From Simplicispira metamorpha (GTDB lineage: Bacteria; Pseudomonadota; Gammaproteobacteria; Burkholderiales; Burkholderiaceae_C): DNA of 64,000 nucleotides. The stretch spans positions 1 to 64,000 of the forward strand of contig NZ_SLXH01000027.1 of assembly GCF_004341365.1 (NCBI RefSeq), given 5' to 3'. The notes below the pieces were generated by a model, which saw only the letters and a program-made list of their open reading frames with translations, ran no database searches and was not told the origin of the DNA. A program made the translations under genes and the position numbers. Below, in pieces: positions 32,712-61,304 of this stretch (within the stretch, counting starts at the first letter, position 1; each line of letters opens with the position of its first letter).

Positions 32712-32744
32712 GCCTCCGCCTTTTTCCTACTGCGATAGAAAGCC

Positions 32745-34061: not shown

Positions 34062-34062
34062 C

Positions 34063-35798: not shown

Positions 35799-35850
35799 TT
35801 TCAAGCCAAATCGGCCTCAAACGCTTGCCAGGCAAGCGCAACCAGCTATG
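35799..35850. repeat. intergenic hairpin repeat, copy 9, containing the hisH start codon
   Basis: It reads TTTCAAGCCAAATCGGCCTC, an AAACGCTTGCC/GGCAAGCG hairpin, then CAACCAGCTATG. The final ATG of the AGCTAT core is the hisH start (35848). Confidence 0.7.
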
Positions 35851-36516: not shown

Positions 36517-36609
36517 GCGCTTGCCTTTGTGCCGCTCTGCCGTTACAAAGCCGATTCATCCTGTTCGGGCCCAACCTGTGAAGGCCCTTTTCTCTCCCGT
36601 AAATCCACC

Positions 36610-37350
36610 ATGCTGCTCATTCCCGCCATCGACCTCAAGGACGGCCACTGCGTTCGCCTCAAGCAAGGCGATATGGACCAATCGACCACCTTTGGTGAAG
36701 ACCCGGCCGCCATGGCGCGCAAGTGGGTGGATGCGGGCGCGCGCCGCCTGCACCTGGTCGATTTGAACGGTGCCTTTGCTGGCAAACCCAAAAACTACGC
36801 TGCCATCCAGGCCATCCTGAAAGAGGTGGGCGACGATATTCCGGTGCAGCTCGGTGGTGGTATCCGCGACCTGGACACGATCGAGAAATACATCGACGGT
36901 GGCCTGCGCTACGTCATCATTGGCACGGCAGCGGTGAAGAACCCCGGCTTCCTCAAAGACGCCTGTACTGCGTTTGGGGGTCACATCATCGTGGGTCTGG
37001 ACGCCAAGGACGGCAAAGTGGCCACCGACGGCTGGAGCAAGCTCACCGGCCACGAGGTGGCCGACCTGGGCAAGAAGTTCCAGGACTGGGGCGTGGAGTC
37101 CATCATCTACACCGACATTGGCCGCGACGGCATGCTCTCGGGCATCAACATCGATGCCACCGTCAAGCTGGCGCAGGCGCTGACCATTCCGGTGATTGCC
37201 TCGGGCGGCTTGGGCAGCATGCAAGACATCGAACGGCTCTGCGCCGTCGAGAGCGAGGGTGTGGAAGGTGTGATTTGCGGCCGGGCCATCTATTCGGGCG
37301 ATCTGGACTTTGCCGCCGCCCAAGCGCGCGCCGACGCCCTGGCGGCCTGA
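36610..37350 (+). CDS. hisA: phosphoribosylformimino-5-aminoimidazole carboxamide ribotide isomerase HisA
   Basis: TIM-barrel isomerase of histidine synthesis, 246 residues. Catalytic Asp8 lies in [18 protein letters not shown]; the phosphate-binding segments are [10 protein letters not shown] and IASGGLGSM, and the second catalytic Asp is in [16 protein letters not shown]. The start ATG 36610 fits the family N-terminus. It is the last his gene before the inserted minus-strand cellulose cluster. A GGCGGC/GCCGCC hairpin (37341-37358) spans the stop codon. Confidence 0.96.
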
Positions 37351-37380
37351 TAGCCGCCGGTAAAGCACCACCACCGGTGC
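37341..37380 (+). terminator. tandem short hairpins at the hisA/bcsG convergent junction
   Basis: GGCGGC (37341-37346) pairs with GCCGCC (37353-37358), and GCACC (37365-37369) pairs with GGTGC (37376-37380). There is no T tract, so intrinsic termination is uncertain, but the position between convergent hisA and bcsG is where a terminator is needed. Confidence 0.35.
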
Positions 37381-37419
37381 CCTGCTTCCCGCCCTTGGCG
37401 CGCCACGATGGAGGCGCCG

Positions 37420-39012
37420 TCAGGGCGCGTATTTGATCCACGGGTCGTTGCCCGACTTCAGAAAGTATTGGCCCGCGTCGTTGCGCAGCGTGACCACGTC
37501 CGCGTTTTCGGAAATGAAGCGCGTGCCGGGGAGTTTGGCGATGCGTTCGGCCAGGGTTTGCAGGGGCTGGGGCGCAAAAGGGTTGTCGGTGAACCAGTCG
37601 TTCAACAGGGCAAACAGATCCAGGTAGCTCATGGGCTGGTTGACCACCAGCGGCGCGGTGGGCGTGTTGTTGGCCGGTGTGCCGACAGGGGCGGCTGGCA
37701 GCGGCAGGCCAATCAGCTTGACGGCGGTGGGCACCACCGTGATGCGCGGGCTGGGGATTTCACGCATCCCTGAAATTTGCATTTTGTCGCCGCGCAAAGC
37801 GGCGCCATGCTCGGGCACCAGAATCAGTGCCACGGGGCGTTTGCTCTTTTCAAGATCATTGATGAAGCGGTCGAAGTCGGCCAGCAGCTGTACCAGGCGC
37901 GGCTTGTAGGTGTCCAGGCTGCTGCGCGAGGTGATGCCGGGAACCCGGTTGCCATCGTGCAGCGATACGGTGTTGTAGTACAGCGCGGTGGGCGATCGGC
38001 CTTGCGCAGTGTGTTTTTTCCACCACTGCGACAGCAGAGCGTAATCGTTGTAGATGGGCGAGCCATCAAAGTTTTGCATGTGGACTGGCGCACTCTGGTT
38101 GGGCAGCAGCTTGCCCTGGAGGCCCCCTTTTTGTTCCAGCATGGTGGCAAAATTTTCATACACACCGTCATGGTTCAGCAGGGCGCCGGTTTGGTAGCCT
38201 ATTTTTTCCAGGCTGGGAAATACATAGCAGGCTGGGTCTTCGCCTTCGTAGATTTGCTGGTGGCGCTGTTGGCCGCAGGTGCCATGCAGCACGCGCAGCG
38301 AGGCCGGGCCGCTGTAGCTGGCAGCGCTGTTGAAATCGGTGAACACCACGTCAAAGCGCTGTAGCAGCGGGTGGTCGCGCATTCCGACAAACTCCATGTC
38401 GTCCCATGACAGCGAGCACACATGCAGCAAGATGATGTCAAACGGCGGTGGAGTGGTACTGGCGCTGAACTGTATGCGCCGCTGGCTTTGCTCGGCATAA
38501 AAGGCCCGCACCAGCTCGTCGGGGGTGCCGGGCTGCTGGGTGGCTGCGCTGGCGTTGGCATCGCCCAGACCGGCCACGCTGGTGTGGGGGTCGGCTGCAT
38601 CGGTTTGCAGGAACTGCACCATGGGCACGCTCAAAATACCTGCCAGCGCCAGCGTGGCAAAACGGATGCGCCGCGCCAGGAGGCTGTAGCTGCCGATGAT
38701 GACCACTAGGCCCATCGCCAGTGTGGGGCTGAAGACACGCTGTAGCAACTCCAGCCAGTAGTCGGCACTGAAGCCGAGCAATGCCTTGGCCTGCGAGAGC
38801 ACGCGCCCTGGCGGGGGCAAATAGGAGTCGCTGTAGAGCAGTGCCAGCGCTGCTGGCCAGGCCAGGACGCTGCGCAACCGACGCCAACGGCCCTGTGGCA
38901 TGGGCCATGCCAAAGCGGTGCCCAAGGCCAGGTTCAGTACCCAATCAAAGCCCGTGTAGCCGCGATAAAACAGGCCAGTCTTGAGCAAAAAGTAAAGATT
39001 CCAGTAGTGCAT
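37420..39012 (-). CDS. bcsG: cellulose phosphoethanolamine transferase BcsG
   Basis: Inner-membrane enzyme that adds phosphoethanolamine from phospholipid to cellulose. Of the 530 residues (E. coli form about 559), the first ~135 hold several transmembrane helices and the rest is a periplasmic alkaline-phosphatase-fold domain. Candidate nucleophile Ser234 lies in AASYSGPASLRVLHG; metal-ligand segments LLHVCSLSWDD and LVPEHGAAL correspond to the zinc site known from E. coli BcsG. It is the last gene of the bcs operon, 11 bases after bcsA. Confidence 0.93.
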   Translation of the reverse strand: MHYWNLYFLLKTGLFYRGYTGFDWVLNLALGTALAWPMPQGRWRRLRSVLAWPAALALLYSDSYLPPPGRVLSQAKALLGFSADYWLELLQRVFSPTLAMGLVVIIGSYSLLARRIRFATLALAGILSVPMVQFLQTDAADPHTSVAGLGDANASAATQQPGTPDELVRAFYAEQSQRRIQFSASTTPPPFDIILLHVCSLSWDDMEFVGMRDHPLLQRFDVVFTDFNSAASYSGPASLRVLHGTCGQQRHQQIYEGEDPACYVFPSLEKIGYQTGALLNHDGVYENFATMLEQKGGLQGKLLPNQSAPVHMQNFDGSPIYNDYALLSQWWKKHTAQGRSPTALYYNTVSLHDGNRVPGITSRSSLDTYKPRLVQLLADFDRFINDLEKSKRPVALILVPEHGAALRGDKMQISGMREIPSPRITVVPTAVKLIGLPLPAAPVGTPANNTPTAPLVVNQPMSYLDLFALLNDWFTDNPFAPQPLQTLAERIAKLPGTRFISENADVVTLRNDAGQYFLKSGNDPWIKYAP

Positions 39013-39023
39013 GGAATCTCGAT

Positions 39024-41492
39024 TCAGAGCGTGCGTGAACGCGGCATGAGGCGTGTGAGAAAGCTGCGCGCATCGGTGGCCAAGGTGTGCCCGAAGGTGC
39101 GGTAGCCGCGTACGCCCAGTTCGGCAATCTCTTGCAGGCCTTGCAGTGGGCGGTCGGTGTCATGGCTCTCGTTCCAGTCACGCCACACGTCCTTGCGGGC
39201 AAAGGTGCATTGCACCAGGTCGATTTGCTGCTGGGTATCCAGCGGGTCGAATTCCAGACCGACTTCACCGCTGTGGCGTTGCAGTGCCACGGTGGCAGGA
39301 AAGACGCATTCCATCTGGCCACGCCATAAACCGAGATGGACTTTTTGTCCTGCAACCAGGGGCGTACCGGCGGCCATGTGCAGGCCCACGCCGGTCATCG
39401 AGAAATCCACACATTGGGCGCGCAGCACCTGTCCGTCATCCAGAAACAGGGTGGCGGGCATGCGGGTATTGACCCGGTGCATGCGCCGCACCTGGCGCGA
39501 CTCGGCTGCCACGCCCAAGGCAGCGCCCAGAATCAGGATGCTGTAGGCCGTCCACAGCAGGTTGAGCAGCACGGTGGCGGTTTCGTGGGTATTCCAGAAG
39601 AACAAGCGCCCCAAACCTACGCCAAAAGCCAGGAAGTTCAGTAACACCAGGATGGTGTAGGGGCGTGAAATACCCCAGTCAAAGTACGGCTGCGCCACCA
39701 AACCGCCTTTGGCCGTGACGTTGAACGTGCCAATGCGCGGGTTGATCAGTGCCACCGTCGTAGGCCAGGCCACGTACCAGGCCAGCACGGTTTCATACAC
39801 CTCGGCCCAGAAGCTGTGGCGGTATTCGCCTTGTACGTGGGCGTTGGCAATGTTGGACTGCAAGATGTAGGGAAACACATACAGGGCAATCATGATGGCG
39901 CCAGCGTTGATGATGTGCCACTCGAAAAACAGAAACGCCATCGGCGCCGTCAAGAACACCAGGCGCGGTAGTCCGAAGAAAAAGTGCAGCATGGCGTTGC
40001 TGTAGCAAATGCGCTGCCACAGCGTCAGCCCCTTGCCCAGAAAGGGGTTGTCGGTGCGGAAAATCTGCGCCATACCGCGCGCCCAGCGAATGCGCTGGCC
40101 CACATGGGCCGACAGGCTCTCGGTTGCCAGGCCAGCGGCCAAGGTGCGGTTCATGTAGGCCGTGGTGTAGCCCCGGCGGTGCAGCTTGAGGGCGGTGTGC
40201 GCGTCTTCGGTCACGGTTTCGACGGCAATGCCGCCCACTTCCATCAGCGGAGCGCGCCGGATCACGGCACAGGAGCCGCAAAAGAAGGTGGCGTTCCAGA
40301 AGTCGTTGCCGTCCTGGATCAGGCCGTAAAAAAGTGCCCCTTCGTTGGGCACGCGCCGGAAGGTGCCCAGGTTGCGCTCGAACGGGTCGGGCGAGAAAAA
40401 ATGGTGCGGCGTTTGCAGCATGGCGCACTTCGGGTCGTGCTGGAACCAGCCTACGGCGCTGGTCAGAAAAGACTCGGTGGGGATGTGGTCGCAGTCAAAA
40501 ATGGCGATCAGTTCGCCGTGGGTGATTTCCAGGGCGTGGTTCAGATTGCCTGCTTTGGCATGCCGGTTGTTGGTGCGGGTGATGTGCCGCACGCCCACCG
40601 ACTCGGCAAACTCTCGAAACTCCTCGCGTTTGCCATCGTCCAGAATGAATACATTGAGTTTGTCGGCGGGCCAGTCGAGTGCCAGCGCTGCCAGCACGGT
40701 GGCGCGCACCACGCTCAGGGGTTCGTTGTAGGTGGGAATGAACACATCCACGCTGGGCCATTCTTGTGGCGTGCCGACCAGTGGTGCCGTGGGGCGCTGT
40801 AGCGGCCAGGCCGTCTGGATAAAACCAAACACCACCACCAGCCAGGTGTAGGCCTCGGCCAGCAGCAGGCCGTAGCCCAGGAGGTACTCCATGGGCGATT
40901 CAAATTCCAGCGAGGACGTCAGGCGCCACCAGGCATACCGGCCCATGGCCAGCAGGCTCAGGGTGGCCAGCATGAGTGTGGGGTACTGCCCCGGCAGGCG
41001 CCGCAGCACCATGGCCAGTGCCCACGCCAGCACCATGAACAAGGTCTGGCCAAACCACGTGAAGGGCGTGGTCATGACCAGGATCGCCGCCAAAGTGCCC
41101 AGTCCCAGAGCGATCCACCGGGCGCCGGGCAAGGCCAGCACGGGCCCCAGATAGCGATCGGCCAAACGCCCTGACGCGGTAACGTTGATGTGCGGTGCCA
41201 GCTTGTCCAGCCAGCGCATGGCCAAACGCACGGGCCAGGCGGCGGCATACAGCAACCTGGCCGTCAGCTTGATGGAGCTGGTCAGCAGCCACGCTACAGC
41301 ACCCAGCAGGCGGTAGGCGCCGGAGGCCAGACTGGCCCAAATACTGTCGCCCGGCACGGCTGGACGCACCAACAGGCGCCACAGCCACAGTCGCAGGGGC
41401 GCATCGCTGGGTACTTCCAGCAAGTGGGCCCACCAGGCTTGCAGGCGGCGCAGGAAACTGGTGGGGGTGGTTGGCAAGGGCGCTGGTGTCAT
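39024..41492 (-). CDS. bcsA: cellulose synthase catalytic subunit BcsA (c-di-GMP regulated)
   Basis: Processive family 2 glycosyltransferase polymerising UDP-glucose and threading glucan through its own channel. The 822 residues carry all catalytic landmarks: ILDDGKR (D285-286), FDCD (333-335), TED (428-430) and QRIRW (466-470). The C-terminal PilZ domain has RxxxR (R669/R673) and DFSMTG (696-701), so c-di-GMP activation should be intact. The start is ATG 41492, which overlaps the bcsQ stop (ATGA); the frame is open 40 codons further but those lie inside bcsQ. BcsA is here far from bcsB. Confidence 0.96.
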   Translation of the reverse strand: MTPAPLPTTPTSFLRRLQAWWAHLLEVPSDAPLRLWLWRLLVRPAVPGDSIWASLASGAYRLLGAVAWLLTSSIKLTARLLYAAAWPVRLAMRWLDKLAPHINVTASGRLADRYLGPVLALPGARWIALGLGTLAAILVMTTPFTWFGQTLFMVLAWALAMVLRRLPGQYPTLMLATLSLLAMGRYAWWRLTSSLEFESPMEYLLGYGLLLAEAYTWLVVVFGFIQTAWPLQRPTAPLVGTPQEWPSVDVFIPTYNEPLSVVRATVLAALALDWPADKLNVFILDDGKREEFREFAESVGVRHITRTNNRHAKAGNLNHALEITHGELIAIFDCDHIPTESFLTSAVGWFQHDPKCAMLQTPHHFFSPDPFERNLGTFRRVPNEGALFYGLIQDGNDFWNATFFCGSCAVIRRAPLMEVGGIAVETVTEDAHTALKLHRRGYTTAYMNRTLAAGLATESLSAHVGQRIRWARGMAQIFRTDNPFLGKGLTLWQRICYSNAMLHFFFGLPRLVFLTAPMAFLFFEWHIINAGAIMIALYVFPYILQSNIANAHVQGEYRHSFWAEVYETVLAWYVAWPTTVALINPRIGTFNVTAKGGLVAQPYFDWGISRPYTILVLLNFLAFGVGLGRLFFWNTHETATVLLNLLWTAYSILILGAALGVAAESRQVRRMHRVNTRMPATLFLDDGQVLRAQCVDFSMTGVGLHMAAGTPLVAGQKVHLGLWRGQMECVFPATVALQRHSGEVGLEFDPLDTQQQIDLVQCTFARKDVWRDWNESHDTDRPLQGLQEIAELGVRGYRTFGHTLATDARSFLTRLMPRSRTL

Positions 41493-42295
41493 GCGGGTTG
41501 CACCAGTGGGGTGTGGGGTGTGGCCTGCGGGGCTGTCGGCAGGTGGTTCATCAGCCACTGGCTGATGCCTTGCAAGTCGTGCGAGGACTGGGCTTGCGGT
41601 GCCCAAGCACACACATTGGCAGCCTGCCCGCAGGCCTGGGCGATGTTTTCATCTTCGTGTACGGAGTAGGGCAGCAGCACGTCGCCCCATTGCGCGCGCA
41701 GCGTTTGCAGCGCCGTGCGTTGGGAGGGGCGGCGCGGGTCGATGCGATTGATGGCAATGGCGTATGGCACACCGGCCGGTGCTTGCGCCAGAGCCTGCTC
41801 CACCAGCGCTTGCGCATGACAAGCGCGGTCCGATGCTTCCAGCACGATCAACACCACACTGGCCACTGCCATGGCCTGACAGGACAGTGGCGCAGGCCAG
41901 GTAGGTGTATCTAAAAAGATAGCGCTATCCGCAGGTACATCAAGGTCTTGAAGCCGATTTTGCAACCAATCTGGACTCAGTGCCCATGCGTGCTGCAAAG
42001 CGGCCAGTTCCGGCAGGCTGACCGCCCCAAAGGGCAGCCAGCCCACCGCGTCCGAGTTGCTCAGGGCAGCGCCGCCCCACCACTGCCCTTGTGCGGCCAG
42101 TGTGGCCCAGCCTGTTTGGTTGCTTTCTGGTGCGCCCAAATGCCGCCCCAGCGTGTTTTGCCTGCACAAGTCAATCGCCAGGCAGGGCCTGCCTTGCATC
42201 GCCACCAAGGTGGCCAGATGTGCTGTCAGGGTGGTGCGCCCGGCGCCACCCAGTGGCGAGACGATGGCAATCGGGGCGGCTGTAGTGGCCATCAT
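41489..42295 (-). CDS. bcsQ: cellulose biosynthesis ParA-like ATPase BcsQ
   Basis: MinD/ParA-like protein of the cellulose secretion machine, 268 residues. A P-loop-like SPLGGAGRTTLTAHLATLVA (about residues 11-30) has Arg where the canonical GKT lysine would be. CLAIDLCRQNTLGRHLG and IFLDTPTWPAPL correspond to Walker A' and B-like strands. ATG 42295 overlaps the bcsF stop by ATGA, and its stop overlaps bcsA likewise. In E. coli BcsQ (with BcsR and BcsE) is needed for assembly and polar placement of cellulose synthase. No bcsR is visible here. Confidence 0.88.
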   Translation of the reverse strand: MMATTAAPIAIVSPLGGAGRTTLTAHLATLVAMQGRPCLAIDLCRQNTLGRHLGAPESNQTGWATLAAQGQWWGGAALSNSDAVGWLPFGAVSLPELAALQHAWALSPDWLQNRLQDLDVPADSAIFLDTPTWPAPLSCQAMAVASVVLIVLEASDRACHAQALVEQALAQAPAGVPYAIAINRIDPRRPSQRTALQTLRAQWGDVLLPYSVHEDENIAQACGQAANVCAWAPQAQSSHDLQGISQWLMNHLPTAPQATPHTPLVQPA

Positions 42296-42456
42296 GGGCT
42301 GTGCTCCGGCGGTACTGGGCGCTGTGCAGCGGACGCATAGGGCACGATGCAGCGCAAGGCACGCGTACGTTGGTGCCTGCGCTGCAGCCAGGCGATGCAT
42401 ACCCAGGCCAACGCGGCGCCCACAGTGACAGAAACGAACAAGAGGAAGAAATTCAT
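42292..42456 (-). CDS. bcsF: small membrane protein BcsF
   Basis: A 54-residue protein with a single transmembrane helix (MNFFLLFVSVTVGAALAWVC) followed by a basic tail (LQRRHQRTR). The size, topology and position directly after bcsE match BcsF, which recruits BcsE to the membrane in E. coli. The start ATG 42456 lies 16 bases after the bcsE stop; a weaker in-frame start is at 42486. Sequence identity in this family is low, so the call relies on context. Confidence 0.8.
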   Translation of the reverse strand: MNFFLLFVSVTVGAALAWVCIAWLQRRHQRTRALRCIVPYASAAQRPVPPEHSP

Positions 42457-42472
42457 AACGGGTGTTGGCTGC

Positions 42473-44317
42473 TCAAGGCGCAGCAAGATCGCGGCGGCGT
42501 TGGGCTATGGGCTTGGCGCAGATGCTGGGCCGTTTTGCGGGCGATGCGGTGGGTGTGGGCGCCTGCGTAGAGTCGAGGCTGGAGGGCACGGCTGGCGGCA
42601 GCGCGGGCACGGTGGCCATGGATGTTGGGTTGGCAGTGGCCGGTACCGTCGGTGTGGCCAAGCCAGCAGGCGATGTGGGCACCAGTGGTGCGAGCAGGTT
42701 GCTGTAGTCGGGCAGGCCCTGGCGTGCGGCGTGGTCTAGCCCCTTGAGCATTTGCAGCATGCCTGTGTGCGAGCAGTCGGTGCTTTGGGCCGTAAAAAGC
42801 TGTGCCACGGGCACGTCAAACAGGCGCTCCAGGGCCGATTCAATATCGGGCTCGCGGCAGGCAAACAAAAACACATACACCGCGCTGTGGCTGGCAGTGA
42901 CCAGGTCGCCATCGCGCGTCATCTTGCACGCGCGCAAAGCGGTGATGTGGGCAATTTGGGGGGCGATGTCCAAACGCACCATGCTGTGGCCCAGGCCAAT
43001 GCTGTGCGTGCGCTCCAGCATGCCCTGCACCAGACGGCAAAACTCGGGTGCTGGTTGGTAGCCGCGTGCCAGCGCTGGCATGAAGGCGTTCAATGCCTGC
43101 GCGTAATCGGGATTGACGGGGCGGTGGTAGCTTTGGCTGCGGATGTCTTGCAGCAATTGCAGCAAACGGGAAAAACCCAGTTCACGGTAAAAAACCGCGT
43201 TGGCGCCCAGCTGCAGCAGGGCTTGTTCGTTGTGCGCGCGCAGTTTGCCGGTGCTCTCACGCACCACGATTTTCAGGGTGGGCGGGCGCGTCAAGCGCAA
43301 GTGGTGTACCAGGCGCGCACGCTCTTCAAACCCGTCGCTGTTGCCCGCGTCGATCAGTACGGTGGCGCCAATGCTATGGGCAGCGGCCGTTGCCACGCCG
43401 TCCAGCGCGTCCACGATTTGCCAGTGCGGTGGCACGCCGTGCTGCTGGGCTACCGCAGCACGGGTGGCAATCACTGCGCGCTGGTCTGGCGCCTCCACCA
43501 AGACCTGGCCTCGGCCCTGGGTGCGGCTGCCGTCGTAGCGCAGCTGCTGCGTCTGTGCGTCCAGCGTGAGGCCAAAACCCGTTTGGAAGACGGCACCGCT
43601 GTCGCTGTTCCAACGCTCAAAGTGCAAAGTGCTGTGGTCTGCACCGGTACACAGGGTGGCGATGTGCATGGTCATGCCGCACAGTTCGCGCAGCATGGGC
43701 AGTACATCGGTCGGTGGTGCCATGGTGGGCGGGCAAAAACCCAAGACAACTGGCTGCTGGCGCTCCAGGCAGCGCAGGCGCAGTTGTTCGCCCACGCGCA
43801 CCAAGGCCTGCATATCCAGCCCCGTGAACAGGGGCTGGGCATCCATGACGTACACCGCATGCTCAGGCCGCAGGCCAACGCTTTGCAGTTCGGTCCACAG
43901 GGGGCGCAGCCCTTGAGTGCGCAATACAGACGGCAGGTTTGGCGCCATCGTCCAGATGACCAGCTGCCCTTGTGCATGGGCAGTGTGCAGTGCGGGGTAG
44001 GACAGCAGGCGGTCAATCCATTCCGGGTCGTGTGCCAGCAAAAATACGCTGCCAGCCGACACCGCATCGGTCAGCAGAGCGGGCAGCCACAGTTCTGCAC
44101 TGGGCATGTCGCGCGCTACCAGCGCTACGGGGGTGCCGTGCGGCAGCCGCCCCATGCCATCGGGCAAGGCGCCGACACCCAGCCCCATGGGCAGGGCCGT
44201 GCTTGGCTGGTGTGCAGAGGTGCGTCGCCATGGGCGGGCGAGCGTACGCAGCACACCCCCCCAATTCAGTGGAGGCTTGGATGGGCGGGAAGACCGCAGC
44301 ATGGAAGACGCAGACAT
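42473..44317 (-). CDS. bcsE: c-di-GMP-binding cellulose regulator BcsE
   Basis: A 614-residue cytoplasmic protein of the BcsE family. The N-terminal part resembles the degenerate ATPase/REC region (VALVARDMPSAELWLPALL, LLAHDPEWIDRLL). The C-terminal GGDEF-like (GIL) domain contains RDGD at residues 468-471, matching the RxGD c-di-GMP-binding motif. A Pro/Thr/Ala-rich tail follows the folded region. The ATG lies one base after the bcsC stop. BcsE is expected to enhance BcsA output in response to c-di-GMP. Confidence 0.9.
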   Translation of the reverse strand: MSASSMLRSSRPSKPPLNWGGVLRTLARPWRRTSAHQPSTALPMGLGVGALPDGMGRLPHGTPVALVARDMPSAELWLPALLTDAVSAGSVFLLAHDPEWIDRLLSYPALHTAHAQGQLVIWTMAPNLPSVLRTQGLRPLWTELQSVGLRPEHAVYVMDAQPLFTGLDMQALVRVGEQLRLRCLERQQPVVLGFCPPTMAPPTDVLPMLRELCGMTMHIATLCTGADHSTLHFERWNSDSGAVFQTGFGLTLDAQTQQLRYDGSRTQGRGQVLVEAPDQRAVIATRAAVAQQHGVPPHWQIVDALDGVATAAAHSIGATVLIDAGNSDGFEERARLVHHLRLTRPPTLKIVVRESTGKLRAHNEQALLQLGANAVFYRELGFSRLLQLLQDIRSQSYHRPVNPDYAQALNAFMPALARGYQPAPEFCRLVQGMLERTHSIGLGHSMVRLDIAPQIAHITALRACKMTRDGDLVTASHSAVYVFLFACREPDIESALERLFDVPVAQLFTAQSTDCSHTGMLQMLKGLDHAARQGLPDYSNLLAPLVPTSPAGLATPTVPATANPTSMATVPALPPAVPSSLDSTQAPTPTASPAKRPSICAKPIAQRRRDLAAP

Positions 44318-44318
44318 C

Positions 44319-47300
44319 TCAGAAACTGGAATAGGTTTGCACGGGGCGCGGGCGGTTTTCTGGCGGTACCAGGACGGGGTGAAAGCGGTAGCGGGCGTAA
44401 AACAGCAGGCTGGTGGGTGCGTAGTAGGCAGAGCGGTCGAGGTCGAGTTGCGCGCCCAGGGTCAGTTGCTGTGACAGGTCGTATTCGATGGCTGCGCGAA
44501 AAGACCGCCCCAGGCCGGTGCTGCGCCCTCCCAGGTAAACAGGCTGTCCCCCCAGGTCGCTGGCCTGGGCTTGCAATGCCGGGTTGGTCGGGAAAAAGTT
44601 GGAGTCCCTGCTGGAGCTGCGCGAGGCCGATACGGCGCCGCGCACCAGCCAGGTCAAGGCGCCATTGCGGCCACTCCACTCCAGCGGCAGCGCCAGCGAC
44701 AGGTAGTTGCGTGGGCTGTAGTAGCCGCCATGCCCCCAACTGAACTCCGACAGATCGTGGCCGTAACGCCAGGCCGACACCGCCAGTGACAAGTTGACGG
44801 TGCTGTGGCTGGACTGCCAGACATCGCGGTCTGCCGCCCAGCGCAGTTGCAGGCGCGTATTGCGGCGCACATTTTTGCCGGTGAGCAGGGCGTAGCTGGC
44901 ACTCAACGAGGTGCTGTACGGGCCGATGTCGGTGGACACCCGGGTGGATAGGCCTGTAGCAACGACGCCTCCCCACACCGCTCCGGTGATGGGGTCGTGC
45001 GCGCCAGCGTAGGTCATCAGGTTGCCGGTGAGAGGGCGGCGCGATACGCCAAACCGGTAGTTGAAGCCGTCGGTGCTGTCGCTGTGCGACACGCCGCCCA
45101 CCAGGTTGGTGACTGGAAAGCCGATGCCCGTCGCCCCAATGTCCCACTCCAGGTTGTCGCCCACAAAGCCAAAACCGACGTTGGTGCCGGTGCTGCGCTG
45201 GCGCGTCCCGCCCAGGCGGTAGTCGCCCTCGGGCCATGCCGCGACCTGGCCATAGTTGCGTGCACTGTCCCTTTGCAGCGGCAGCTCACCTGCGTCCAAC
45301 TGGACTTGGTCGACGTGCAGCACATAGTGCCCGTCGTAGCCCCGGGGCATCCAGGCCACCATCGGGCGTTCCCAGCCGTGCAGGCTGGAGATGCCCTCGG
45401 TGGCATTTTTTTCCAGTGTTTGTTGCCCGCCTTCGATCCAGACCTGCCGACGCGCTTCAATGGTGCGTACTTCGGTGGCAATCTTGTCCAGGGCTTCATG
45501 GCCGGTGTGGGCCGTGGCGTGGATGGGCGCAGAGGCGTTCAGGGTGTATGTCAGCGCCAGAGGCATGCCCGGTAGTGCGTCAGTCTGGCCAGATGTGTTC
45601 GGGGTGGCAGCGGGTGTGCTGGCGGGCAAGGGCCATTGCAGACTGTAGGTCAAGGCCAGTGGCTTGCCCTGCGGTGTATCGGCGGTATCGGGTGTGCCGG
45701 GCGTGTTGGCGGTCCCCGTCAGTGCCATGCCGGCGCTGTGCGCTTCCCGTGCCCACGCGCGTTGAAACAGCCCAATGGCCTGTGCGTACTGGCGTCCGGC
45801 GCGCTCCAGCCGCGCGGCGTGCAGCAGTACATCGGTATCAGCGGGGGCCGATTGCAGTAGCTGTAGCGACAAAGCCCGTGCCTCTGCCATGTCGCCAGCG
45901 CGCTGCCACAGGCGCAGCAGTGCCAGCTGCTGGTTGGTATCGGTGGGGGGCAGGTGCTGCGCCAGCCAGCGCGCTTGTTCCATAGCTTCTTCACTGCGTC
46001 CCTGGCGCGACAGGGCGTCGCCCAGCGCCATGCGCAGCGCTGCGTCGTCCGGCAACTCGGCTACCAGTGCTTGCAGCACGGTGGTGGCGTCGGCGTATTC
46101 ACCGGCGGCGGCCAGCAGCTGTGCCTGCACCCGGCGGCGCTGCTGCTGGGTGGGGGCTGCATGGCTGCGTGTGTGGATGTCTGGCAGCGGGGCGTGTGCC
46201 AGTTCGAGCGCTTGACCTGGTTGGCCAGCGGCGCGCTGGCGCTCAATCTGGCGCTCTTGGTGGTTGCCGTACAAGGCCAACAGCTGCGCCTCTTGTGCGC
46301 TACTCCATTGCAAATGCGCCAGCAAAAGGGGCAGGCGCTGTGCCACAGCGGCATCGTTTTGTGCACGGTGCAGCAAGGCGGTGTGGTCGAGTTGCACTGG
46401 CACAGGCAACGGGCCAGCGCGCTCTTGCAGCCGGTCAAATACCGCCACGCCCGAGTGGGGTTGGCCGCGCTTGAACCAGGCATTGGCCACGGCATACAGC
46501 AAGTCGGCATCGTTTTTGGCCAGTGCCTCGGCGCGCTCCAGCAGGCTGTGGGTGTCGGTGTCGCTGGCGGGTGTGGCGCTGTTGGTGGCTTGTGCGATCA
46601 GCTGGTTCACTGAAGCGCGTTGCACCAGTTCCTGCATGCCTTCAGTGCGATCAGCGGGAGCGATGTGCGCCATGTCGGCCAATGCGCCAGATTCATCGTC
46701 CAGGGCGCTGCGGATCAGCGCCCGCGCATAGCGCATGGGCGCTGCCCCAGGGGCCAGAGCTACGCCTTCGTCCATGGCGTGGAGGGCTTCCTGGGGCAGG
46801 CGCAGTCGCACATACAGTTGCGCCAGGCTGTGGCGTACCCAGGGGTTATCTGGCTCCAGTGCTACAGCGGTTTCCAGTGCGCGCAGTGCCGCACCGGGGC
46901 GTTGTGCCTGGACAAATGCTTTGGCCTGCTCTTGCAGCAGGTCGGCGCGCGGGCCGGCCAGTTTGCCAGCCAGATCGGCATGGCTGGCAACCGCTTTTTC
47001 CAGCAGTGCCAGCCCTTGGTCTGGTTGGCCTTGGCGTGCGTACACACGGGCCAGACCCTTCAGAGCGTCACTGTTGTCAGCGTCGTGTTGCAGGGCCTGC
47101 TCATACAGCATTTGTGCTTCGGGCAGCGCGTTTTGCAGGGTGCGGATGCCGGCCAGGGTATTGAGTGCCTCCGGGCTGGCGGGTTGCAGGGCCAGCGCCT
47201 TGCGTGCCAGACCCTCAGCGGTATCGATCTCGTTTTGGTCTAACGCCAACTCGGTTTGGCGCAGCAGCCCCCAAAAGCGGGCCGTACTTTGCAGCTTAGC

Positions 47301-48362
47301 CCATTTCTCCTGGCCCGACAGGGCATAGGCTTGGCCCAACAGTTCCTGCGCTTGGGCGTGCTGTCCTTGGCGCAGACGAATCAGGCCCAGATTGCCAATG
47401 CTGTCTGCATCGCGCGGGCGCAATGCCAAAACCAGTTGCAGTTTTTCTTCGGCCAATGCGGCGTTGCCTTGTTCCAGTGCCTGCAAGGCGGCATTGCGCG
47501 CCACTTGGGCAGGGTCTTGGGCCCGCTGCTGCACGCGCTCTTGGGCTTGTTGCAGGGCGGCCAGGCGCTCCACCATGGCCGTATCGCCCGGAAAAAGACG
47601 CAGGAAGCGCTGCGCTGAACGCGCAGCGGCGGCGTTGTCGCCTTGCTGGGCCAGTGCCCGGCGCCACAGCGCTTGTAGTGCCAAGGTGTCCACATCGGCT
47701 TGCCCGGCCAGCGCTTCAATGGCGGACAGCAGCGTGTGTGCCCGCGTGCCTTGCGCCAGTTGCATGTCCAGCAGTGCCAGTTGGTAGCGCGATTCGCCGG
47801 TTTGCTGGTAGAGGCGCTGGAGGTGGCGCTGTGCATACGCACCCTGGCCTGTAGCCCCACCGACGATCTGAAAATACTCCAGCGCCAGGCTGCCAATGGT
47901 GGGCGGGCCTGCCGGAAACAGTGTGCGCGCCATCTGCGCTGCCTCGTCCATGCGACCAGCGCGTGCCATGAGGCGCATCTGTGCCAGTTTTTCACGCTCA
48001 GGCCCGTACACCTGCACCAGCATCTCCAGCTCTTTGGTGAAGGGACTTTGCGGGTGCTGTGCGCGCAAGGTGGCCAAAATGCGCTGTGCTTCTTCGGTCT
48101 TGTTTTCACGCAGGGCCAGTTCACCCAAAGAGGCCAAACCAACGGGTGAATAACGGTCGGCCAGCAGCAGTTTTTCGATCAGCTGGCGTGCCAGATCGGC
48201 ACGGTTTTTGGCCGACCACATCTGCGCTCCCCGCAGCAGCTCGACTTGGGTGCTGGAGGGTGTGGATGCTTTGGTCTGGGCAAGCGCCTGCACCGGCACA
48301 CTGGCCACGCAGGCCGCCACCACCACGCACCAGCCGTGGCTGGAGAAAGGGGCGCCACGCAT
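44319..48362 (-). CDS. bcsC: cellulose export protein BcsC (TPR + outer-membrane barrel)
   Basis: Periplasmic TPR scaffold and outer-membrane exit pore for cellulose. The 1347 residues comprise a signal peptide (cut near ALA-QT), about 850 residues of TPR repeats (for example ADSIGNLGLIRLRQGQHAQA and NSDALKGLARVYARQGQPDQ), a Pro/Thr-rich linker with two similar PLALTY segments, and the C-terminal BCSC barrel (from about 980), ending in Phe as outer-membrane barrels do. ATG 48362 is chosen over GTG 48374 because it overlaps the bcsZ stop (ATGA). Confidence 0.94.
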   Translation of the reverse strand: MRGAPFSSHGWCVVVAACVASVPVQALAQTKASTPSSTQVELLRGAQMWSAKNRADLARQLIEKLLLADRYSPVGLASLGELALRENKTEEAQRILATLRAQHPQSPFTKELEMLVQVYGPEREKLAQMRLMARAGRMDEAAQMARTLFPAGPPTIGSLALEYFQIVGGATGQGAYAQRHLQRLYQQTGESRYQLALLDMQLAQGTRAHTLLSAIEALAGQADVDTLALQALWRRALAQQGDNAAAARSAQRFLRLFPGDTAMVERLAALQQAQERVQQRAQDPAQVARNAALQALEQGNAALAEEKLQLVLALRPRDADSIGNLGLIRLRQGQHAQAQELLGQAYALSGQEKWAKLQSTARFWGLLRQTELALDQNEIDTAEGLARKALALQPASPEALNTLAGIRTLQNALPEAQMLYEQALQHDADNSDALKGLARVYARQGQPDQGLALLEKAVASHADLAGKLAGPRADLLQEQAKAFVQAQRPGAALRALETAVALEPDNPWVRHSLAQLYVRLRLPQEALHAMDEGVALAPGAAPMRYARALIRSALDDESGALADMAHIAPADRTEGMQELVQRASVNQLIAQATNSATPASDTDTHSLLERAEALAKNDADLLYAVANAWFKRGQPHSGVAVFDRLQERAGPLPVPVQLDHTALLHRAQNDAAVAQRLPLLLAHLQWSSAQEAQLLALYGNHQERQIERQRAAGQPGQALELAHAPLPDIHTRSHAAPTQQQRRRVQAQLLAAAGEYADATTVLQALVAELPDDAALRMALGDALSRQGRSEEAMEQARWLAQHLPPTDTNQQLALLRLWQRAGDMAEARALSLQLLQSAPADTDVLLHAARLERAGRQYAQAIGLFQRAWAREAHSAGMALTGTANTPGTPDTADTPQGKPLALTYSLQWPLPASTPAATPNTSGQTDALPGMPLALTYTLNASAPIHATAHTGHEALDKIATEVRTIEARRQVWIEGGQQTLEKNATEGISSLHGWERPMVAWMPRGYDGHYVLHVDQVQLDAGELPLQRDSARNYGQVAAWPEGDYRLGGTRQRSTGTNVGFGFVGDNLEWDIGATGIGFPVTNLVGGVSHSDSTDGFNYRFGVSRRPLTGNLMTYAGAHDPITGAVWGGVVATGLSTRVSTDIGPYSTSLSASYALLTGKNVRRNTRLQLRWAADRDVWQSSHSTVNLSLAVSAWRYGHDLSEFSWGHGGYYSPRNYLSLALPLEWSGRNGALTWLVRGAVSASRSSSRDSNFFPTNPALQAQASDLGGQPVYLGGRSTGLGRSFRAAIEYDLSQQLTLGAQLDLDRSAYYAPTSLLFYARYRFHPVLVPPENRPRPVQTYSSF

Positions 48363-49573
48363 CAGCGCTGCCACCGCACCTGGAGCTGTCCAGAGGCCGT
48401 GAATTGGTAAAAATTGTCGTCCCAGCCCATGCCAAACAAGGCCAGTGCCTGTTCGTAGTAGGCGTTCTTGCGGACAGGGCGTGCTTGCAGGCGCGTGCGC
48501 TGTTCTTGCAGCGCGGTGCTTTCCTGGGTGGCCCGCAAAAAGGGCAGCATGGCCGCCGAAAAGCCCGAGGCAGCTGCGCCGCTGTGCTTTCCACTGAGGA
48601 TGTCAATGGTTTCTGGCGGGTAGCCGTGCTGGCGGACAAAACGCGCCATGGGTGCCAGCGCGTCCAGCACGGATTGGCGGTCGGGGGCATCGGGGTGCAC
48701 CATGCCGGCCCATAAATACACGCGAATCGCGTTGTAGCCACCCTGGCCTTTTTCTGCGCCTTCGGTATCTTGCAGGAAGCCTTGTTGGGCGTCGTACAGC
48801 GTCCAGTCGGGTGTAAACCCTTTGGGCGACGCGCCAATGATGATGTTGCGCGAGCTGTTGGCCAGCGCACGCCACTCGGGCTGGGGTTGGGTGCGCGCCA
48901 GCCACTCCATGACTTGCAGGGGCATGTAGCTGGGGTTCAAGCGCCAACGCTGATCGCCTTGGGTAAAGCCCTTGGGCGCAGGCAGCAGGCTGCGGCCCAG
49001 ACCGGGCAGATCGGCAGTTTCCTCACGCAGGATGCGCGCCGCCAGCAGGGTTGACAGCGCGCGGTAACGGCGCTCGTTCCACAGACGCCCGGCTTCGCCC
49101 AGCGCGTACGCGATCCAGATGTCGGCGTCTGAGGCGGGGTTGCTGTCCATCACGTCCCAGGTGCCATCCGGGCGTTTGCCCCACAGCCAGGCGGGCAAGC
49201 GGGTGGTCATGTCGCCTGCGCACAGGTTGTTTTCTGTCCACGCCAGAATTTTCTCGAAAGATGCGCGGTCGTTGGCCACCAGGGCGAAGAACAGGGCATA
49301 GGCCTGTGCTTCGGAGTAGGTCTGCCCGGTGCCCTCGGCGCCCGAAAGAATGCGCCCGCCTTCGTTCATGAATTGCGTGCGAAACGACTCCCACGCTGGC
49401 CATATTGGTGTGTTGGCTGCCGCTGGGCTGGGTGTCTTGGCGGTGGTGTCGGTTGGCTTGCCCGATGGTGGCGGCACACTGGCGGGCGCTTGGGCTGCCA
49501 GACTGGGCAACGGCAGCAACAGGGAGCACAGCCCGGCATACAGCATGTTGCGACGCAGTGATAAATCAGCCAT
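48362..49573 (-). CDS. bcsZ: periplasmic endo-1,4-beta-glucanase BcsZ (GH8)
   Basis: Family 8 glycoside hydrolase that trims cellulose in the periplasm and influences fibre properties. The 403 residues have a signal peptide (cut near SLA-AQ). The GH8 motif TYSEAQAYALFFALVANDRA has predicted general-acid Glu88, and the conserved SDADIWIAYALGEAGRLW lies near 149-165. The start ATG 49573 has AGAGGTG upstream and overlaps the bcsB 3' end by 8 bases; the longer frame to 49627 lacks a signal peptide at its N-terminus. Confidence 0.94.
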   Translation of the reverse strand: MADLSLRRNMLYAGLCSLLLPLPSLAAQAPASVPPPSGKPTDTTAKTPSPAAANTPIWPAWESFRTQFMNEGGRILSGAEGTGQTYSEAQAYALFFALVANDRASFEKILAWTENNLCAGDMTTRLPAWLWGKRPDGTWDVMDSNPASDADIWIAYALGEAGRLWNERRYRALSTLLAARILREETADLPGLGRSLLPAPKGFTQGDQRWRLNPSYMPLQVMEWLARTQPQPEWRALANSSRNIIIGASPKGFTPDWTLYDAQQGFLQDTEGAEKGQGGYNAIRVYLWAGMVHPDAPDRQSVLDALAPMARFVRQHGYPPETIDILSGKHSGAAASGFSAAMLPFLRATQESTALQEQRTRLQARPVRKNAYYEQALALFGMGWDDNFYQFTASGQLQVRWQR

Positions 49574-51911
49574 GTTCACCTCTGAGGCGGCGTGCTGCCA
49601 TGGCGCGCAGTGCACCGTACACGACAAAAGTCACCAACAAGCCAGCGCCAATGCCCAGCAAAGCCAGCAGCAGCGGGTGGCTGTGCAAATGGAACCACAG
49701 CCATTGCCACCATGGCAGGCTGCCTACGTAATAAATCGGGTTGATGCGAAAGCTGTCGATCGTTTCAGCGCGCAGCAAAACCAGGTCGCCGCGCATTTGC
49801 TGGATTTTTCCTGAGTCGTTCAGTCCGGCGCTGACCCGCTCCATGGCGGCGCTGTCATTGGCCGTCAGGGCCACCACGCTGCGCCCGCTGTGCAGGGGCG
49901 ACTCAAACCCGACCAGGGCCGCCAAGGCGCCTTCTCCTTCCAGGGTGGTGCGGCCGCCCGAAGGCGAGCGTTCCAGGGCCGGGTCGGGCTGGAACCAGTG
50001 GGTCAGGGCGCTCATGGCCCGCTCCAGTGGTGCTACGGAGCGTGTTCCGGCCGCGACCAGTGCGGGCAAGTGCTGCTTCCACTGGGCCAGCAGGCCGTCG
50101 CGATCGCCCTGCGCTACCAGCAGAATGTCTGTGTCGCGCGCCTGTTCTACCTGTGCTGCCGACAGCAACTTGAAGCGTGTGCCCGGGTAGCCCGTCGATG
50201 CGCTCATGCGACTGATGGCCGTCAAGAACACTTGCACATCGGCCGCCGTCGGCTGGTTGGGCAGCACCACGGAGGTTTGCGCCAGATCAGGCACGCGGGT
50301 AAACGGAAAGCCGCTGTTGGCATAGGCCGCCAAACTCGGCATGGCGATGTAGTGGTGAAAGCCCGTCAGGTCAATGGTCGATTGTGGGTCAATGGCGGCG
50401 ATGCGCTCCACGGGCTGCAACGACCGGCATTGGCCCAGATCGTTGGGTGGAATGTAGAAACCAAACTGCAGCCGGTTGTTGCTGCCCAGCATGAAGGCGG
50501 GCACTTTCAAGCCGGCATGGGAAGGCAGGCTGCTTTCGTCAAACAGCGGCAGCAGCACCTTGTTTTTGCTGTCGCTGCGTTCACTGCGCGAAGCCAGCGC
50601 ATAGCTTTCAATGAACTGGTCGTTGATGGACACGTTCAGTGTGCCGGGGTCAGCGTCGTTGCCGGGGGTGTGGCGGTATTTCAAGTCCAGCGGTATGCCC
50701 TTGGCATTCCAGGTGAACAAGTCGGGGGCCATGCGGGTGGAGATGCTGATGGTTTCGTTCAGCACCGTGCCGCGCACTTGCAAATCCCGGGGGTTGGGCA
50801 CCAGTTCGGCCAAGCGCACCGGGCGCTCGCTGGTAACCCAGTTGGGTGCGTCATAGGGGCGCGTGGGTGGTGGATACTCCAGCGCTGTGATAGCCATGCT
50901 GGAGCCCGTCAGGGCGGCCCGGTCAAGGGCCAGGGCGTCGGCGGCAATTTGCAGCTGTGCCGCATCCTGGCCCAGCACCAGCAGCAGCTTGGCGCCGGGG
51001 GTGTTGGGGTGGGGCAAGAGGGTCAGCGTCGGCTGCTTCACGGGGGGCAGATCGTGCAAAAACGCCGGGCGCTGGGCGTTGGTGGCAAACACCACGGCGT
51101 GGCGCTCTGGCAATTGGTCTTCAAACGCCGTGAAGTCGTTGCCCCGGTAGCCAGCCAACATGCCCAGCCAGCTGGCCACGGAGCCCGATGCCTTCAGCAC
51201 TGCCATGTCCGGCTGCTTGGGGTACACAAAAGCCAGCTGAACCGGGCGGTTGTCGCGCGCATCAAAAAAGGGTGCGGGCAACAAAGCCAGATCGTCGCGC
51301 TGGGGCAGTTGGCGCAGCGACAGCGACAGGGTGCTGTCATTGCTCACGCTGGCCCACAGGCTGCTGTGGTTGGGGTTCTCGCACTCGGTGGTGTAGTGGC
51401 CGATGAACTGGAAGCGAAACCGGTTGTAGTCGGTGAAGTAGCGCGGATCAATGTCCAGCTCCACCGTTTGCGGCGTACCCAGTTGTTCTTTGTTCAGTAC
51501 GACGGTTTGTAACAGTTCGTCGTTCAGCATCACCTTCAGGTGCGACAGCCCCGGCAGCAGGGCGGGCGACAGGGTGAATGTCAGGCGCAGTCTGGCTGCC
51601 TCCACCAACTCATCGCGGCGCACGCTCACGCCGATGCTGCCCTCGCTCTCGACGCCGCGCAGCGTCAGGGGGTTGCCCAGTCCCAGCTGCTTGAAGCTGT
51701 TTTTCCACTGGCGCAGCGGCAGCCGCTCCTGGGTGGTTTCCTCCACGGCCATAGCCACCGTGGCGGTGTCTTTGTTTCTGGTGGGTTTTTCCTTGGCGCC
51801 AGCAAATGGGGTGACGGCTACGCCACAAGCGAAAAGCGCTGCCAGCCAAGGCTTGGCGGTGAATGGGTTACTGGTCGTCACTGGAGGAGTCTTGAAAGAC
51901 GCATGGAACAT
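49566..51911 (-). CDS. bcsB: cellulose synthase periplasmic subunit BcsB
   Basis: Periplasmic subunit whose C-terminal anchor packs against BcsA and activates it; carbohydrate-binding and flavodoxin-like domains guide the polymer. The 781 residues contain a signal peptide, LRGVESEGSIGVSVRRDELV, IGHYTTECENPNHSSLWASV, and a C-terminal transmembrane helix (LLALLGIGAGLLVTFVVYGA). ATG 51911 is used; GTG 51917 (two more codons) is equally possible, and neither has a clear ribosome-binding site. It is the first gene of the bcs operon. Confidence 0.94.
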   Translation of the reverse strand: MFHASFKTPPVTTSNPFTAKPWLAALFACGVAVTPFAGAKEKPTRNKDTATVAMAVEETTQERLPLRQWKNSFKQLGLGNPLTLRGVESEGSIGVSVRRDELVEAARLRLTFTLSPALLPGLSHLKVMLNDELLQTVVLNKEQLGTPQTVELDIDPRYFTDYNRFRFQFIGHYTTECENPNHSSLWASVSNDSTLSLSLRQLPQRDDLALLPAPFFDARDNRPVQLAFVYPKQPDMAVLKASGSVASWLGMLAGYRGNDFTAFEDQLPERHAVVFATNAQRPAFLHDLPPVKQPTLTLLPHPNTPGAKLLLVLGQDAAQLQIAADALALDRAALTGSSMAITALEYPPPTRPYDAPNWVTSERPVRLAELVPNPRDLQVRGTVLNETISISTRMAPDLFTWNAKGIPLDLKYRHTPGNDADPGTLNVSINDQFIESYALASRSERSDSKNKVLLPLFDESSLPSHAGLKVPAFMLGSNNRLQFGFYIPPNDLGQCRSLQPVERIAAIDPQSTIDLTGFHHYIAMPSLAAYANSGFPFTRVPDLAQTSVVLPNQPTAADVQVFLTAISRMSASTGYPGTRFKLLSAAQVEQARDTDILLVAQGDRDGLLAQWKQHLPALVAAGTRSVAPLERAMSALTHWFQPDPALERSPSGGRTTLEGEGALAALVGFESPLHSGRSVVALTANDSAAMERVSAGLNDSGKIQQMRGDLVLLRAETIDSFRINPIYYVGSLPWWQWLWFHLHSHPLLLALLGIGAGLLVTFVVYGALRAMAARRLRGEHG

Positions 51912-52175
51912 AGTCACGCAAATGCAACAAAATGATGCTTGTCGATGTGAGCGTAAATTTTATGGAGGGATTGATTGCTTTCATCTATTACGTTTTGAAA
52001 GCAAATAGTCCATTCAAATTCTTGCGTTGGCGCGAAATTTTCCCCTTAATCCTTGTCGCGCAGGGTACCGGTTTTTGTCAGCGCGGGTGTTGCCTGTCTG
52101 GTTAGGTCGGCCATGGCGCCGCTGCCTGCGTGGTATCTTGCGGGCCTTCTTTTGAACTGCCAGATTTACAGCGCC
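51912..52175. other. AT-richer divergent control region between bcsB and hisF
   Basis: This 264-base gap is visibly more AT-rich (especially 51930-52050) than its surroundings. It must hold the promoters of both the bcs operon and the separated hisF block. It contains the inverted repeat at 51975-52004. I see no convincing full -35/-10 pair in either direction and no short gene. Confidence 0.6.
51975..52004. promoter_or_regulatory. perfect 9-bp inverted repeat upstream of bcsB, candidate operator
   Basis: TTGCTTTCA (51975-51983) and TGAAAGCAA (51996-52004) are perfect complements separated by 12 bases, 64-93 bases upstream of the bcsB start. The AT-rich symmetric shape suits a dimeric regulator. 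The binding factor is unknown, and a transcript hairpin is the alternative reading. Confidence 0.4.
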
Positions 52176-52976: not shown

Positions 52977-53027
52977 GCACCAGGCGGCGTTTGGCTGCGG
53001 TCTGCGGCGGTGTCTTTTTTGAATGAA

Positions 53028-53081
53028 ATTCACCTCAGAAGCCCGCCAGATAAGCGCAAGCAGCTATCATTTTCATATCAA
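53028..53081. repeat. intergenic hairpin repeat, copy 10 (reverse orientation)
   Basis: AGAAGCCCGCCAGATAAGCG and CAAGCAGCTATCATTTTCAT match the complement-orientation element. It lies between hisF and hisI. Confidence 0.75.
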
Positions 53082-53126
53082 CTGCGGGCCATGCCGCAGT
53101 GCAGCAAATCACCGACAATGGGCGCC

Positions 53127-61208: not shown

Positions 61209-61304
61209 AAAAAACTCCTTGCTGGGATCAAAGCGTGCAGTATCACCGGCCCCCAAGCGCTGTCAACGCAGGCAGACGGGTGGCGGGGCCCTTTTTCACT
61301 CCGC

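Follow-up and report, generated by a model that had tools for sequence, protein, structure and literature searches.

The hisA–hisF interval as a probable exchange hotspot for cyclic di-GMP-linked exopolysaccharide operons in part of the Comamonadaceae

The window, a stretch of 64,000 nucleotides from Simplicispira metamorpha (contig NZ_SLXH01000027.1, positions 1–64,000), carries a histidine (his) operon that is split between hisA and hisF. hisA stops at 37350 and hisF starts at 52176, and seven genes of a cellulose (bcs) operon fill the 37.4–51.9 kb between them on the minus strand. This split had been noticed in a preliminary description of the sequence, and the coordinates and the NCBIfam and Pfam assignments agree with it. 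Comparison with relatives makes it likely that, in this part of the Comamonadaceae, exopolysaccharide (EPS) operons linked to cyclic di-GMP (c-di-GMP) are exchanged at a chromosomal hotspot between hisA and hisF, and that hisF is driven by a promoter of its own. The exchange would take place by homologous recombination through the conserved his (and galE) flanks, and the lineage of the window itself may have participated in a swap.

Alternative occupants of the hisA–hisF interval

The genus of the window (g1) is represented by 26 genomes, the window's own (G000) included. HisF and BcsB were located in them, and the stretches were fetched and annotated. The site is readable in 21 of the 26 (G012, G013 and G024 are uninformative there, and in G014 and G017 the contig runs out after hisA–aldose epimerase). 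Different gene blocks lie between the same two conserved genes in these relatives, which is the mark of a variable-cargo hotspot. A pel operon occupies the site in 11 of the 21 genomes (G001, G005, G008, G010, G015, G018, G019, G020, G022, G023 and G025), and G018 and G025 hold an NGR-like operon together with it in the interval. The bcs operon is found in three (G000, G004 and G011), and in G011 it is accompanied by a galE-like gene and an NGR-like operon. The NGR-like operon stands alone in two (G003 and G006). The other occupants are an acyl-CoA ligase/enoyl-CoA hydratase/sigma-54 activator block (one genome, G002), a GalE/PelX-like epimerase alone (one, G009) and the aldose epimerase alone (two, G007 and G021), and the interval is empty in one genome (G016). 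In the pel loci of g1, a Spherulin4-domain gene lies on the hisA side, and the GalE/PelX-like epimerase lies on the hisF side where it was seen. G004 shows the same hisA–bcs–hisF arrangement as the window on a single contig of 452,864 bases, so the split is not an assembly accident of one genome. BcsB was detected in 4 of the 26 genomes, three times at the site and once, in G016, elsewhere with a distinct bcs. This second-type bcs operon (L048 3065–17287) lies on another contig than the closed hisA–hisF and has 46–68% protein identity to that of the window.

The Pel cargo was recognised through the PelB barrel, the PelD GGDEF domain and PelG, which Pfam names. GH114/deacetylase, DUF3492-glycosyltransferase and TPR proteins stand in the places of PelA, PelF and PelE; since Pfam names only PelB, PelD and PelG, the names pelA, pelC, pelE and pelF are ones we assume from gene position and family links. 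The epimerase gene beside pel passes the GalE cut-offs. The NGR-like cargo encodes, on the his strand from wecB to algF, WecB, an NfrB-type synthase, an NfrA C-terminal domain with TPRs, a weak BcsB match, two AlgX-like proteins, an MBOAT protein and AlgF; its DUF4434, acyl-CoA dehydrogenase, acyl carrier and AMP-ligase genes lie on the opposite strand. The NfrB-type synthase carries an MshE-related c-di-GMP domain and scores over the PRK15489 cut-off and under that of NfrB itself. Each operon type thus has a known or likely c-di-GMP-binding domain (PilZ in BcsA, GGDEF in PelD, the MshE-related domain in the NfrB-type synthase), so the site would set which c-di-GMP-controlled matrix polymer the cell is able to make. 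The polymers made by the bcs, pel and NGR-like operons are predicted from these genes. No integrase family was found among the cargo genes tested.

The survey was extended to 299 genomes of the family, with at least 150 HisF matches listed and the hisA distances read from fetched stretches. PelG is present in 42 of the 299. In 18 genomes it has at least 68% identity to the copy of G001, and in 17 of these pel is on the strand opposite to hisF at a distance of 11–30 kb; in the eighteenth (G278), pel is elsewhere. The pel operons near hisF span six genera (g1, g5, g20, g85, g113 and g121), and every one of the six has at least one fetched stretch with hisA on the other side of pel. Distant PelG (identity of 59% or less) was found in 24 genomes, and pel was near hisF in none of the 11 whose hisF position is among the matches listed. 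BcsB is present in 35 of the 299 genomes, with the hisF position known for 24; in G190, a BcsB of 41% identity lies about 27 kb beyond hisF, on its other side. The BcsB-like protein of the NGR operon was detected in 19 of the 299 genomes (two matches are barely significant), and the hisF contig of G164 begins inside NGR genes. A galE-like gene occurs at the site without pel in G009, G236, G298, G152 and G042. Two insertion points were seen, one before the aldose epimerase gene (g85, g20) and one after it (G005, G010, G020, G137, G145).

The closed order was assessed in named Burkholderiales loci, the best 80 of 587 confirmed (591 matched), which are a sample and not the nearest relatives, and which overlap the family genomes (L102/G412, L068/G202). 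hisA and hisF lie within 400 bp in 42 of the 80 loci, and hisA–aldose epimerase–hisF lies within 1200 bp in 20 more. The usual adjacency of hisA and hisF assumed in the preliminary description is therefore borne out, and because the closed order is usual, the gap is derived. The remaining named loci have further genes before the aldose epimerase (4), a gap of 605–2585 bp (11) or no hisA shown (3). The closest HisF among these best 80 of 587 is that of Acidovorax delafieldii (93%). Distant NGR-type genes precede hisF in Comamonas sp. RQ_Bin_4, and the hisA–hisF gap of Comamonas sp. Sulfur_bin.21 holds an opposite-strand HD-domain gene.

Other contents of the interval were observed in further genomes. 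A gap of about 1.4–1.5 kb is present in genus g91 (L102, L291–L295), and in L102, the only one of these annotated for it, the gap holds one opposite-strand HD-domain protein (8541–9884) that is possibly tied to c-di-GMP turnover. G344 (L300 9516–17645) has HlyD-like, outer-membrane efflux-like, galE-like and three unassigned frames between hisA and hisF, and G034 (L296) has a gap of similar layout. In G233 (L299 13877–16146), a GT2 glycosyltransferase and an unassigned frame of 318 amino acids lie between hisA and a galE-like gene; this set is perhaps a further polysaccharide type at the site.

Descent of the cargo and of its flanks

The rpoB+gyrB tree places G011 and G025 as sisters (SH-aLRT 100). 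Their DNA identity is 90–93% in rpoB, gyrB, hisH, hisA and hisF and 85–86% in the shared galE-like and NGR genes compared. Their loci differ at one position, where G025 reads hisA–pel–galE–NGR–hisF and G011 reads hisA–bcs–galE–NGR–hisF (on two contigs). Between bcsB and galE, G011 contains a decayed hisH fragment of 258 bp in operon orientation, which is 76–77% identical to the hisH of G011 and G025 and is possibly the scar of a recombination involving his sequence.

The Pel proteins of g1 fall into three groups that are interleaved with other genera. In quick trees under a simple model, a single g1 Pel clade was rejected (AU test, p 5e-7), and joining the Pel of G005/G010 to the G008 group was also rejected (p 0.001), as was joining the G020 copy likewise (p 6e-58). 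The hisF and hisH–hisA trees broadly keep the g1 species clades, with G155, from another genus, inside g1 in the hisH–hisA tree. The phylogeny of the pel cargo thus differs from that of the flanks and the species, as expected at a hotspot. A minimum of 8 state changes is needed for 18 g1 genomes on the species tree, and a minimum of 9 for the presence of any EPS operon across the coded genomes.

The bcs operon shows another pattern. In the tree of the seven concatenated Bcs proteins, G000 and G004 group together (96/97), followed by G011, with G016 outside, and a grouping of G016 with G000+G004 is rejected (p 0.0002). Third-codon identity between the window and G004 is 52–67% in bcs, 69–71% in rpoB/gyrB and 63–64% in hisH/hisA/hisF. 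Because this divergence is like that of core genes and the tree is congruent with the species, bcs seems to date back to roughly the time when its carriers split. The star-like five-protein tree has been superseded by the seven-protein tree, which resolves G000+G004, and we therefore do not claim that bcs passed laterally between clades.

A separate observation concerns HisB of the window (35175–35798), which is 92–96% identical to HisB of G005, G007, G009 and G019 and 75–80% identical to that of G001 and G016. G001 and G016 have the highest RpoB identity to the window (96%), and G009 is the nearest row to the window in the species tree. This pattern may reflect recombination upstream of the site.

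The conserved element before hisF

In the cargo-bearing loci, CGTGGTATCTTGCG or a variant of it lies 36–46 bp before the hisF ATG (79 bp in G004). The DNA upstream of the motif varies: it may be the last part of galE, the start of a divergent bcsB or DUF4434 gene, or other sequence. Across 2.64 Mb of fetched loci, 33 copies of TG-N-TATCTT were counted, and 28 of them stand before hisF (G020 included). For the association with the upstream DNA, 151 hisF loci were considered; 16 without a resolved hisF start were omitted (among them L297 of G298, where the motif is present). From the 135 that remained, 4 repeats and 1 region that was too short were also taken out, which left 130 distinct regions. 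The motif is present in 38 of the 48 hisF upstream regions with other DNA, in 0 of the 42 after hisA and in 0 of the 40 after the aldose epimerase (Fisher p 7e-24, a statistic that ignores shared ancestry). Of the 40 hisF preceded by the aldose epimerase, 28 are separated from hisA by that gene only; in the other 12, the epimerase is preceded by further genes or by no hisA.

The association was also used for prediction. The pattern was found in 26 of 399 family genomes, and the 13 new cases at hisF all lack hisA or the aldose epimerase directly upstream, where G412 was already in the named sample as L102 and hisA is off the stretch in G367 and G376. Five motif-free comparison genomes have hisA (G264, G093 and G131) or the aldose epimerase (G306 and G042) directly before hisF. 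A TG-N-TAT..T sequence near the start codon, conserved among unrelated upstream DNA, has the form of an extended −10 element, and on this sequence evidence TG-N-TATCTT is probably the extended −10 promoter of hisF. The preliminary description had placed a promoter for hisF–hisI–hisE in the gap between bcsB and hisF; a candidate does lie there, at 52131–52139, and its promoter function is predicted. If hisF is transcribed independently in this way, there is room for large operons in the interval. In G005 (L053, L054), hisA–pel–galE is intact and hisF lies 2.4 Mb away in contig coordinates, with the TATCTT element kept.

The window locus, competing explanations and known systems

The features of the window are listed in Table 1. 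The NCBIfam cut-offs are passed by murA, hisG, hisD, hisB, hisH, hisA, hisF, hisI and hisE; hisC is the best match for its gene at 272.7 bits against a cut-off of 276.55. The hisA start is ambiguous (36529 or 36610). The bcs operon is transcribed in the order bcsB-Z-C-E-Q-A-G, and all seven genes score above a Pfam cut-off and, except bcsC, above an NCBIfam cut-off too. They comprise the core genes bcsA (GT2 and PilZ), bcsB, bcsZ and bcsC and the accessory genes bcsE, bcsQ and bcsG, a set which we take to be class II. The operon had been called complete, which holds for these seven genes; neither bcsF nor bcsR was recognised in the window, and the small 64-codon frame is above no family cut-off.

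Table 1. Features of the split his operon and the bcs block in the window
Feature	Position	Strand	Basis or remark
hisG-D-C-B-H-A, upstream half of his operon	31552..37350	+	NCBIfam (hisC just under cut-off)
hisA/bcsG junction	37351..37419	.	convergent genes; weak terminator-like hairpin at 37414-37428
bcsG	37420..39012	-	Pfam CBP_BcsG, 575 bits; NCBIfam TIGR03368
bcsA, cellulose synthase with PilZ domain	39024..41477	-	Pfam and NCBIfam; alternative start 41612
bcsQ	41489..42292	-	Pfam and NCBIfam cut-offs passed
small 64-codon frame, candidate bcsF/bcsR-like	42292..42486	-	one hydrophobic stretch, judged by eye
bcsE	42473..44188	-	Pfam and NCBIfam cut-offs passed
bcsC, TPR and outer-membrane domain	44319..48326	-	Pfam BCSC_C; under NCBIfam cut-off
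bcsZ, GH8 endoglucanase	48362..49573	-	Pfam and NCBIfam cut-offs passed
bcsB, first gene of bcs operon	49566..51911	-	Pfam and NCBIfam cut-offs passed
bcsB/hisF divergent intergenic region	51912..52175	.	between bcsB start and hisF start
CGTGGTATCTTGCG, conserved extended -10-like element	52129..52142	+	candidate hisF-I-E promoter; promoter function predicted
TGGTATCTT, within extended -10-like element	52131-52139	+	candidate hisF promoter
hisF-hisI-hisE, detached downstream his half	52176..53929	+	NCBIfam

The tRNA search of the window found none, and flanking repeats were limited to short imperfect, chance-like matches among the largest repeat families listed (for example a 24-nt inverted pair at 37236–37259 and 51640–51663, 88% identical, inside hisA and bcsB). 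Together with the lack of an integrase among the cargo tested, this agrees with the earlier impression that no integrase, tRNA or direct repeat stands at the edges. No pel, galE or his remnants were found in the junctions of the window. The GC content of the bcs genes (0.61–0.65) overlaps that of the his genes, and the GC at third codon positions (GC3) is 0.69–0.80 for each bcs gene versus 0.81–0.86 for each his gene measured. Composition was considered as a sign of foreign DNA and set aside, since GC overlaps and the slightly lower GC3 is not decisive. Elsewhere in the window, the GC content falls to 0.53–0.60 at 1–8000 and 61000–64000, compared with roughly 0.60–0.68 in the rest.

Several observations weigh against the hotspot reading. 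The contigs of G010, G011, G018, G019, G022 and G023 break inside the interval, so contiguity there is inferred, and the stretches of G296, G230, G273 and G158 stop short of hisA. A gap of more than 600 bp was seen at hisH–hisA in 0 of 21, at hisB–hisH in 0 of 16 and at hisC–hisB in 0 of 7 stretches, versus 12 of 13 at hisA–hisF (two of these 12 hold the aldose epimerase alone); however, the control with neighbouring junctions is not clean, since hisD–hisC has such a gap in 3 of 4 stretches and since no hisI is seen downstream of hisF in 10 stretches of g1 where at least 1.3 kb of sequence is available (L037, L041, L043, L045, L050, L052, L053, L055, L057 and L059), where L043, L045, L052 and L057 have a LytTR response regulator after hisF; hisF–hisI is kept in the window, G001, G015, G016 and G022. 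bcs at the site is known from g1 only, the window being the sole case among the 24 BcsB carriers with known hisF position. NGR carriers with a listed hisF have the operon elsewhere, except G025 and G164, and outside g1 NGR at the site was seen in part only (a contig break in G164, distant relatives in L105). The bcs tree of the three site carriers follows the species tree and shows no conflict of cargo and species, bcs diverged like core genes, and vertical descent of bcs with loss elsewhere is possible. Replacement may have run in either direction, and no breakpoint was mapped in the window. As to the motif, the 10 motif-free regions of the 48 are named loci of other genera (9 with a gap of 605–2585 bp, the tenth with too little sequence), and it is absent in 6 pel or NGR loci of g85/g20 with the aldose epimerase directly before hisF; G164 likewise has the aldose epimerase before hisF and no motif. 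Against a promoter function, the sigma-70 scan did not report the TATCTT element, which has no −35 match, and in the window a 7-pair hairpin with a T-rich tail spans the element.

A recent single insertion of bcs into an intact hisA–hisF junction of the window's own lineage, as the preliminary description proposed, would suit the usual closed order, the lack of any trace of other cargo in the window and the lower GC3 of each bcs gene. It is nevertheless very improbable, because G004 shares the arrangement and its bcs has diverged to about the extent of core genes, G011, which belongs to another clade, has bcs where its sister has pel, other cargo (mainly pel) interrupts the operon at this point in most readable relatives, and the hisF motif is common to the window and pel-bearing relatives. 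Two findings had been named as telling against recent insertion, and the outcome is mixed: bcs is far from present in all close relatives (3 of 21 readable), while among the three carriers bcs does branch in the species order. This congruence, and the similar divergence of bcs and core genes, would fit with bcs entering early in g1 and descending vertically, the pel, NGR and empty states arising by later replacement or loss. The hotspot would then be real and the lineage of the window would never have swapped. We regard this as doubtful, as the presence of pel here in five genera besides g1 suggests that pel preceded g1, the galE-like gene beside bcs in G011 is the one accompanying pel elsewhere, and bcs occupies so few readable genomes.

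Repeated use of one interval could also point to a site-specific mobile element that targets the junction. The lack of tRNA and convincing flanking repeats in the window and of an integrase among the cargo genes tested, and the two different insertion points on either side of the aldose epimerase, make this extremely improbable. The TATCTT element might instead be a terminator, an attenuator or a regulator site, which is compatible with the hotspot reading; the hairpin and the sigma-70 scan speak for it. We consider it unlikely. Among homologues TG-N-TATCTT is kept but the bases of the stem around it differ, a terminator would be oddly placed immediately ahead of the hisF start, and in G005 the element also stands before a hisF that lies far from hisA.

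For the hotspot reading, the following course of events may be proposed. The starting order would be hisA–(aldose epimerase)–hisF in one operon, which is usual and probably ancestral. The interval would have opened in several lineages, with hisF gaining its own promoter, as TG-N-TATCTT suggests. Whole opposite-strand operons could then be gained, lost, stacked or replaced without cutting hisF from transcription, the occupants being pel, NGR-like (nfrB/nfrA/wecB/bcsB-like/O-acetylation, where the genes from wecB to algF point the same way as his) or bcs, as in the window. Exchange between related species could then proceed through the homologous flanks (his genes, galE), and the selection may be for alternative matrix polymers. 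We put forward, tentatively, a stronger version in which hisA|hisF is a matrix-polymer 'type locus', where species and perhaps strains swap cellulose, Pel and NGR-like operons through the conserved flanks under diversifying selection, for example by glycan-receptor phages, and where the promoter release of hisF is the enabling step.

Capsule and O-antigen loci with fixed flanks, such as galF–gnd beside his in Klebsiella and E. coli and dexB–aliA in pneumococci, are the classic swap sites. As in these loci, alternative surface-polymer blocks lie between the same housekeeping genes and would be exchanged between lineages. Unlike in them, the hisA–hisF cargo is made up of biofilm operons of the synthase-dependent, c-di-GMP-linked type that mostly run against the his genes, an operon for an amino acid is interrupted, and the variation here is between species and genera. 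The cargo shares its gene content with known bcs, pel and NGR (nfrAB–wecB) operons and differs by its common site in the his operon. The available parts of PMC8669472 describe an NGR-like cluster with BcsB and O-acetyltransferase homologues in Achromobacter xylosoxidans and NGR as a phage receptor in E. coli; phage use of NGR as the selection for polymer exchange is only a suggestion. Whole-operon duplication and transfer of synthase-dependent EPS operons is described in the accessible portion of PMC7112194, and the operons here would likewise move as whole units; that portion mentions no shared chromosomal site, and its main text contains neither 'genomic locus' nor Comamonadaceae nor Acidovorax. 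According to excerpts of PMC10138114, split his operons need new promoters, and the his operon here would similarly form separate transcription units, with one conserved promoter-like element before the detached gene across genera. PelX is a UDP-GlcNAc C4-epimerase of Pseudomonas protegens in the section consulted of PMC9135694; the epimerase gene here adjoins pel in the same way, passes the GalE cut-offs and occurs at the site without pel. No literature on EPS operons at hisA–hisF was found in open-licence PubMed Central (PMC).

If the hotspot reading is true, one could read from the space between two his genes which matrix polymer a given species in the group may produce. The site would be the equivalent swap address for synthase-dependent biofilm operons, placed inside a biosynthetic operon. 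It would also be a replicated natural experiment on the breakage of a textbook operon, with a promoter-like element in front of most hisF genes that follow foreign DNA.

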